64,000 nt of DNA from Kalmusia sp. IMI 367209 (taxonomy: Eukaryota > Ascomycota > Dothideomycetes > Pleosporales > Didymosphaeriaceae), in contig JAPEUQ010000018.1 of the NCBI GenBank assembly GCA_027946365.1, positions 828,558-892,557 of the forward strand. The letters are read 5' to 3'. Positions within the stretch are counted from its first letter, which is position 1, and every line of letters begins with the position of its first letter. A program made the position numbers and the translations under genes. The notes beneath the pieces are model-generated. The model was not told where the DNA came from, did not search any database, and saw only the letters and a program-made list of their open reading frames with translations. Of this stretch, positions 13,178 to 13,723 are shown piece after piece.

Positions 13178-13723
13178 TTAATTTAATAGAACGTATAGGA
13201 TATAGTATCTTTGGTAGTAATACTTTGCTAAATAAGAATCTTTAACCTAAATTATAACCCTTTTTTGCATGGATCGCATTCATTTGGCAGTCTAGGAAAA
13301 TAAGTATTTACTTAATAGTTAATATACTGATTAGAGGTACATACCTTCAAGATATCCAACTATGAACGCCTTAGTAGCTTCTTAAAGAACACTTAGTGTA
13401 GAAGCCTAGATGCGTAAGTCTGGCTTATAGGTATAGACTAGCTCGCGAACAAGACGTGAGAATGAAAGCTTATAAATAAGTAGCTCTATAGTTTTTTGAT
13501 ATTACCTAATCTCTCTAAGCGCCACCACTATATCCTATTAGCTTAAGAATATGATTAGAAGCTATAATAACTTACTACCTAGCTTAAAGCGCCGCTTTTT
13601 CTTCGTATTGCCAGCAATCTTCTCGCGCGTAGCCTTACTAGCTAGATCTTTTTTAGGAGCTTTTCTGCTAGTTACTAGCTTATAGTAAGGCTTTTTAGTA
13701 GCAACTTATTTAGATCTAGCTAT
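13178..13723 (-). pseudogene. Histone H3-like gene carried by the hAT, three exons, RIP-damaged
   Basis: Exons on the minus strand are 13723-13576, 13527-13345 and 13291-13178. The decoded frame begins ARSK.VA (H3 tail ARTKQTA) after ATA, which sits where ATG would be. It then has KAPKKDLASKA (H3 [11 protein letters not shown]), VALREIR.YQKTIELLI, LSFSRLVRE, YKPDLRI.AS, EATKAFIVGYLE and AIHAK...KDSYLAK. These cover the N-tail, the alpha-N helix and the whole histone fold in order. Introns are 13575-13528 (GTAAGT...TAG) and 13344-13292 (GTATGT...TAG). In-frame stops fall at codons explained by CAA/CAG to TAA/TAG, four of the five where H3 has Gln. One extra A in a run near 13265 shifts the frame. 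Product about 147 residues; H3 is 136, and the excess is partly an insertion after tail residue 7. Loop 1 has the H3 length, so it is not a CenH3. The copy is not functional as it stands. Confidence 0.9.

Follow-up and report, generated by a model that had tools for sequence, protein, structure and literature searches.

A histone H3-like gene as family-wide cargo of an hAT transposon in Kalmusia sp. IMI 367209

A histone gene enclosed within a transposon may simply travel with it or may be of use to it, and the locus described here raises this question. In 64,000 nucleotides of genomic DNA of Kalmusia sp. IMI 367209 (hereafter the window, i.e. the whole stretch analysed), an initial annotation had placed a histone H3-like gene, H3L, on the minus strand at positions 13178-13723, inside an hAT element. 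Mobile DNA rarely carries histone genes, and both Manning 2013 and Dhillon 2019 interpret such genes as captures.

A tblastn search of the 64-kb window with H3 gave a match at 13178-13723 of the minus strand with an E value of 2e-18, against 0.23 for the next segment pair, which rules out a chance resemblance to H3. Both annotated ends were exact (start codon at 13723-13721, stop codon TAA at 13180-13178), and removal of the two annotated introns, with GTAAGT and GTATGT donors, restores the H3 frame. In young copies, excision of the first of them yields PGTVALREIR, as in H3, and from this motif to the end of the histone fold H3L aligns with H3 without gaps. An Rfam scan of the window at gathering scores returned no match. 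The gene is composed as follows:

13576-13723, minus strand: H3L exon 1, encoding the N-terminal tail; the window copy has ATA as start codon, young copies have ATG
13528-13575, minus strand: H3L intron 1, predicted; 48 bp, GTAAGT...ATAG, phase 1, in the codon equivalent to Thr45
13345-13527, minus strand: H3L exon 2, encoding the greater part of the histone fold; covered by the H3 tblastn match and by PF00125 matches
13292-13344, minus strand: H3L intron 2, predicted; 53 bp, GTATGT...CTAG, phase 1, in the codon equivalent to Asp106
13178-13291, minus strand: H3L exon 3 and stop codon, with the C-terminal signature; frameshifted in the window copy

The window copy of H3L is a pseudogene: its start codon is lost, four in-frame stops precede exon 3, and exon 3 carries a 1-bp insertion that is absent from the 21 other aligned copies. 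The surrounding element, its insertion site and its other genes are arranged in the following way:

12808-18804, plus strand: hAT element of 5997 bp, RIP-mutated; defined by the homology border, the TIRs, the target-site duplication (TSD) and the hAT dimerisation domain in sister copy L014
12800-12807: left TSD, AATAGAAC; exact over 8 bp, equal to the right one
12808-12824, plus strand: left TIR, TAGACTGGCAAATGGGT; 17 bp
13724-14242: 519-bp region between divergent genes, presumed from gene orientation to be a shared promoter
14243-15457, plus strand: central gene; 360 aa as read from sister copy L014, three predicted introns
15900-18440 (approximate), plus strand: hAT transposase gene, broken here; recognised by PF05699 in the matching ORF of L014 and by sister-copy ORFs
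18788-18804, minus strand: right TIR; 17 bp, one transition apart from the left TIR
18805-18812: right TSD, exact over 8 bp, equal to the left one
6100-6430 (about 6.1-6.4 kb): empty site, an uninterrupted copy of the target repeat, along which the joined flanks align

Homology to other copies starts at window positions 12790-12808 in 19 of the 20 fetched loci (L009-L028) and at 12853 in L016. According to the initial annotation, H3L was enclosed by exact TIRs and an 8-bp TSD; the TSD is indeed exact, but the TIRs are not quite so, because one transition separates the left from the right (both conform to TAGACTGG(C/T)AAATGGGT). Alignment of the joined flanks revealed that the empty-site paralogue has GATAGAGC where the insertion has its TSD. 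The element shows (i) the 8-bp TSD typical of hAT transposons, exact in the window and in 5 of 10 further copies and visible against the empty site, and (ii) the C-terminal dimerisation domain of the hAT transposase, identified in L014 (PF05699, E 3.6e-18) and corresponding to the region near 18000-18240 of the window. Three genes, i.e. H3L, the central ORF and the transposase, lie between one pair of TIRs.

The central protein, as read from L014, has an extremely acidic C-terminus, with 34 D/E and a single K/R among its last 61 residues. Nothing in Pfam matched it above the cut-off (JetD_C, E 0.25, and Exonuc_VII_L, E 3.8, were far below), and without the acidic exon it had no match up to E 10 among sequences of solved structures. 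An identity as a Myb/SANT or HMG-box protein, guessed by eye, was supported by neither comparison. Subterminal repeats of the GGTATAGGTTGGGTT / GGTTAGG type were observed at 12808-12960 and 18600-18800 of the window and at 4404-4560 of L014; these may perhaps be candidate binding sites for the transposase. The left subterminal region of L014, a young copy, contains GGTATAGGTTGGGTTGGG-like repeats, which are merely loosely telomere-like, and the presence of telomere repeats at the element ends was therefore rejected.

Comparison of the window copy with the majority sequence of ten little-mutated sisters revealed 542 substitutions; C>T and G>A changes account for 538 of these. Counted on both strands relative to nine of these sisters, the mutated sites comprised 361/630 CpA, 122/326 CpG, 34/443 CpC and 20/864 CpT. 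This pattern is the signature of RIP, with the context preference described in Dhillon 2019, and this copy of the element is dead, killed by RIP. The expectation that H3L might permit escape from RIP was thus not borne out: the gene gives no exemption, because RIP has struck the window copy and further copies heavily.

The host genome (42.8 Mb, 30 contigs) contains 34 copies of H3L with 80-100% identity to the window copy, as well as one further fragment of 126 bp. All 34 copies adjoin the left end of the element and share its border, so that H3L is cargo, as annotated, throughout the family, and a solo or processed H3 insertion with borders of its own is ruled out. H3L is carried by 34 of 35 left ends of at least 245 bp, and of the 32 transposase copies exceeding 1.3 kb, 28 are accompanied by H3L in the expected orientation within 5.5 kb (nine shorter left-end matches, ten shorter transposase matches and the 126-bp fragment were left out of these counts). 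Four long transposase copies have no H3L in place; the one inspected (L051) is truncated. Short H3L derivatives resembling the 2.3-kb form of Pyrenophora (see below) were not seen in the two copies inspected, L017 and L021, both of them truncated and with no right TIR found.

Among the 22 H3L copies that were aligned, 11 are little or not RIPped and have kept the ATG and most letters. Un-RIPped copies with H3L between the same TIRs, which the initial annotation had proposed to look for, therefore exist in the host genome. In L011 all three exons are read through into an uninterrupted H3L of 147 aa, with start, stop and both predicted introns intact. L010, which is lightly RIPped, has three stops in H3L, and the nine other little-RIPped copies have small indels within the gene. 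Over the whole element, nine young copies display 261 indel events (207 of a single base), which outnumber substitutions in every one of these copies except L015. As many as 147 of the events lie in or beside runs of at least three identical bases, which make up 14% of bases. Most indels of one or two bases in the young copies probably reflect assembly noise in repeats.

Exact TSDs were found in five of the nine un-RIPped copies whose ends were sought (L010, L014, L015, L024, L025). The 8-bp flanks of L018, L019 and L023 are unequal, and the right end of L011 was sought and not found; the RIPped copy L009 has a TSD with one mismatch, a transition. The element has moved recently, as is evident from its near-identical un-RIPped copies and exact TSDs. 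The octamer CTATATAT flanks L018 on the right and L023 on the left, which could result from an exchange of ends between copies, from chance recurrence in AT-rich DNA, or from misassembly.

What kind of H3 does the element encode? The H3L of L011 matches the Pfam Histone family (PF00125) with an E value of 2e-32, and H3L is identical to the canonical H3 of the host (L029, C12:2358446) at 85 of 134 aligned residues (63%). The two proteins have the histone fold and loop lengths in common, whereas their tails and C-termini differ, the C-terminus of H3L being the longer. Their introns also lie at different positions (codons 9 and 121 in host H3, codons 50 and 111 in H3L), and H3L was therefore not derived directly from the host gene as it now stands. 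Identity, intron positions and a separate clade in the phylogenetic tree together rule out recent capture of host H3. The statement of the initial annotation that loop 1 has the H3 length, and hence that H3L is not CenH3, held true: H3L has no insertion there relative to host H3, whereas loop 1 of the host CenH3 (L030), likewise a divergent H3, is three residues longer, and the tree places H3L outside the CenH3 group.

The conserved tail of canonical H3 is absent from H3L. An insertion of roughly 12 residues altering the Lys9 context had been annotated; the context is altered, but the insertion comprises 6 residues, and 2 residues are missing after Lys27 (net +4). In the tail, equivalents of Lys4, Lys14, Lys18, Lys23 and Lys36 are kept, a longer KKPRHKLATGGK stretch takes the place of the ARKS context of Lys9, and Glu-Lys occupies the position of Lys27-Ser28. 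In the alignment H3L also retains His113, Arg116, Asp123, Leu126, Arg63, Arg72 and Arg83, which we take to be residues of the H3-H3' bundle and of DNA contacts; because these are kept, H3L is likely to enter nucleosomes.

A search of protein collections with H3L yielded 7995 matches. Among the 120 listed, four relatives were recognised: P0045 (Paraphoma chrysanthemicola, partial; recorded from 3 contigs) and three metagenome proteins, P0053 (recorded from 18 contigs), P0055 and P0059. Together with H3L they share a derived C-terminus, EDC(N/Q)xNAIHA(K/R)RVTIQxKDSxLA followed by YY, and in a tree of 25 chosen proteins the five form one clade with support of 100/99. The H3/CenH3 phylogeny suggested by the initial annotation thus groups H3L with neither the host H3 nor CenH3. 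At K27, ARKS is retained in P0045 and P0053, and RKT/RKA occurs in P0055 and P0059; because the relatives keep or partly change these contexts, the altered K9 and K27 contexts are a trait of the present element and not of the H3L clade. H3L is not only family-wide cargo, but also a long-diverged H3 variant with relatives elsewhere. No match with a Pyrenophora name was present among the 120 of 7995 listed or among the 62 of a second listing (many entries being nameless). A word search from the tail region gave one candidate and no match, and 29 pattern matches in viral contigs included no relative.

Another conceivable origin of the conservation is that the element took up an H3 variant gene of the host, the sequence of H3L reflecting the conservation of such a host gene outside the element. 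None of the four relatives has an established link to a transposon, but a protein search of the host genome (E<=0.001) detected only element copies, canonical H3 and CenH3, and no free H3L gene; we regard this origin as unlikely. In the same genome, a weak histone-family match (26.6 bits, just above the cut-off, with 3 stops) lies outside the element copies at G000:C1:2285138-2285473.

An H3-carrying hAT is not a new sort of object, because both Manning 2013 and Dhillon 2019 reported such elements; the present one adds to those known from other fungi. According to Manning 2013 (PMC3538342), Pyrenophora tritici-repentis contains a 5.6-kb hAT encoding a transposase, a central ORF of unknown function and an H3L with tail insertions, present in 26 near-identical H3L copies, with ESTs and a 2.3-kb recombinant form; the authors raised the question of whether H3L alters chromatin and suggested drift. 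The two elements are much alike, with (i) an hAT transposase with dimerisation domain, a central ORF and an H3-like gene between TIRs, (ii) an H3L with an insertion in the N-tail that is neither H3 nor CenH3, as judged from the published description, and (iii) young near-identical copies. They differ in size (about 5.6 kb versus 6.0 kb here) and in RIP, which is weak or absent in P. tritici-repentis and heavy in many copies here.

Dhillon 2019 (PMC6710886) describes hATs with H3-like sequences in Pseudocercospora fijiensis and five other Mycosphaerellaceae, with an 8-bp TSD, 135 to 784 copies per genome and CpA to TpA RIP. As in our case, these are hAT elements with 8-bp TSDs, H3-like cargo, many copies and RIP. 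The P. fijiensis element is 9.5 kb long with one or two H3 copies each, which were read as intronless captures of a transcript, all extra H3 copies being RIP-dead. In contrast, the 6.0-kb element described here has a single H3-like gene, in which two introns are predicted, and some of its copies are un-RIPped. No other H3-carrying hAT was recognised among the further papers listed, as judged from title and abstract opening. New in the present case are the occurrence of intact and RIPped copies side by side, the separate H3L lineage, the altered ARKS contexts at both K9 and K27 (K27 = Glu) and the divergent partner gene with its very acidic tail.

One account of the gene is the transduplication proposed in both reports, combined with drift: the hAT captured H3 once, and a useless H3L fragment has since spread merely with the element. 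Manning 2013 suggests drift and Dhillon 2019 finds RIP-dead extra copies alone. The young expansion is silent on this point, because the changes in the window copy are nearly all due to RIP. Differences between H3L and host H3 by codon position amount to 0.34/0.22/0.70, and pN is 0.27 and pS 0.88, the latter being inflated by silent changes of the host gene and by base composition. An open reading frame alone is no proof of selection, as the frame also stayed open in 268 of 2000 neutral drifts to the same identity.

On a broad profile (97 other H3 proteins and host H3) H3L reached 199.1 bits, whereas 1000 neutral drifts averaged 159.7 and none exceeded 189.6. In a rerun under two mutation models it again outscored all 1000 drifts in each (maxima 197.9 and 193.9). 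This profile may favour H3L, because the 97 proteins had themselves been retrieved with H3L or its relative as the query. Control drifts, 1000 each under even and AT-biased mutation, introduced substitutions and left out indels. On a profile of 51 canonical-like H3s and host H3, 35 and 74 of 1000 drifts reached H3L, and for the gap-free histone fold alone the numbers were 43 and 131 of 1000. Whole-protein BLOSUM62 scoring, with gaps charged to H3L, does not separate it from drift and is uninformative on constraint, because 699 and 704 of 1000 drifts reached H3L. In a joint test, chosen after the others, only 27 and 40 of 4000 drifts both remained open and matched H3L on the fold.

The constraint on H3L raised by the initial annotation thus finds support in the broad profile, in which all drifts were beaten, but the controls are weaker in two cases and negative in the third (BLOSUM62). 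These comparisons point with moderate strength to constraint, whether inside the element or elsewhere, and pure drift seems an unlikely origin of the H3L sequence. For capture followed by useless spread, the frequency of open frames, the BLOSUM62 result and the weakness of the two other controls are favourable, but the broad profile, the rarity of drifts with both an open frame and an equally good fold, the well-supported clade of relatives, full-length or nearly so, that have the derived C-terminus in common, and the intact L011 gene stand against it; it remains, in our opinion, a serious possibility, as probable as the main reading that follows.

Our main reading, to which we assign a probability of roughly 0.3, is that H3L and the acidic protein act as a histone variant and its carrier, which delay heterochromatin on a young three-gene hAT. 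The shared promoter would transcribe H3L and the divergent acidic-tailed gene, the product of which would serve as carrier of H3L. Acidic tails are found on many histone carriers; in the present case the carrier role is suggested by composition and gene order, since the acidic protein has no recognised domain. H3L would then enter nucleosomes on new element copies, or wherever it is expressed, and such nucleosomes would lend themselves poorly to methylation at H3K9 and H3K27, because the tail has lost its ARKS contexts (Lys27 being Glu). The resulting delay of heterochromatin could prolong the expression and mobility of the element in the intervals between sexual cycles, without stopping RIP. 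Such a proposed anti-silencing role is plausible. A stronger form, in which a selected H3 variant and a dedicated acidic carrier constitute a chromatin kit, build nucleosomes that K9/K27 silencing cannot mark and persist across fungal lineages, is rather unlikely.

H3L adjoins the left subterminal region in all 34 copies, and the element retains a separate acidic-tailed gene. Both observations would also suit a role in transposition itself, with H3L packing or bending the subterminal repeats or bridging the transposase to host chromatin, and not acting against silencing; however, many hAT elements transpose without an H3-like gene, and we consider such a role quite unlikely. Very unlikely, in our view, is an effect of dosage, in which H3L merely soaks up H3 chaperones or H4 as a decoy and thereby disturbs host chromatin generally, even though 34 copies in the genome, 11 of the 22 in the alignment having suffered little or no RIP, would accord with it.

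Compared with the earlier reports, the delay of heterochromatin by H3L is a sharper idea of what such a gene could be used for, and it is testable, because RIPped and un-RIPped copies coexist in one genome. If H3L is selected, a transposon with its own H3 variant would represent a concrete, testable counter-defence at the level of the nucleosome, and H3L, as a naturally occurring H3 in which both silencing sites are altered, would offer a tool.

Two minor observations concern the surroundings of the element and its copies. RIP-mutated coding stretches resembling gypsy-type retroelements were noticed in the window at 40861-40995 and 50069-50735 (by eye and from chance tblastn matches). Moreover, the distance to a contig end is no more than 25 kb for at least 11 H3L copies out of 34, and a single 50-kb contig holds two of these; examples (in the host assembly, G000) are C10:1718, C29:5758, C30:13963, C8:1087364 and C26:2675348.
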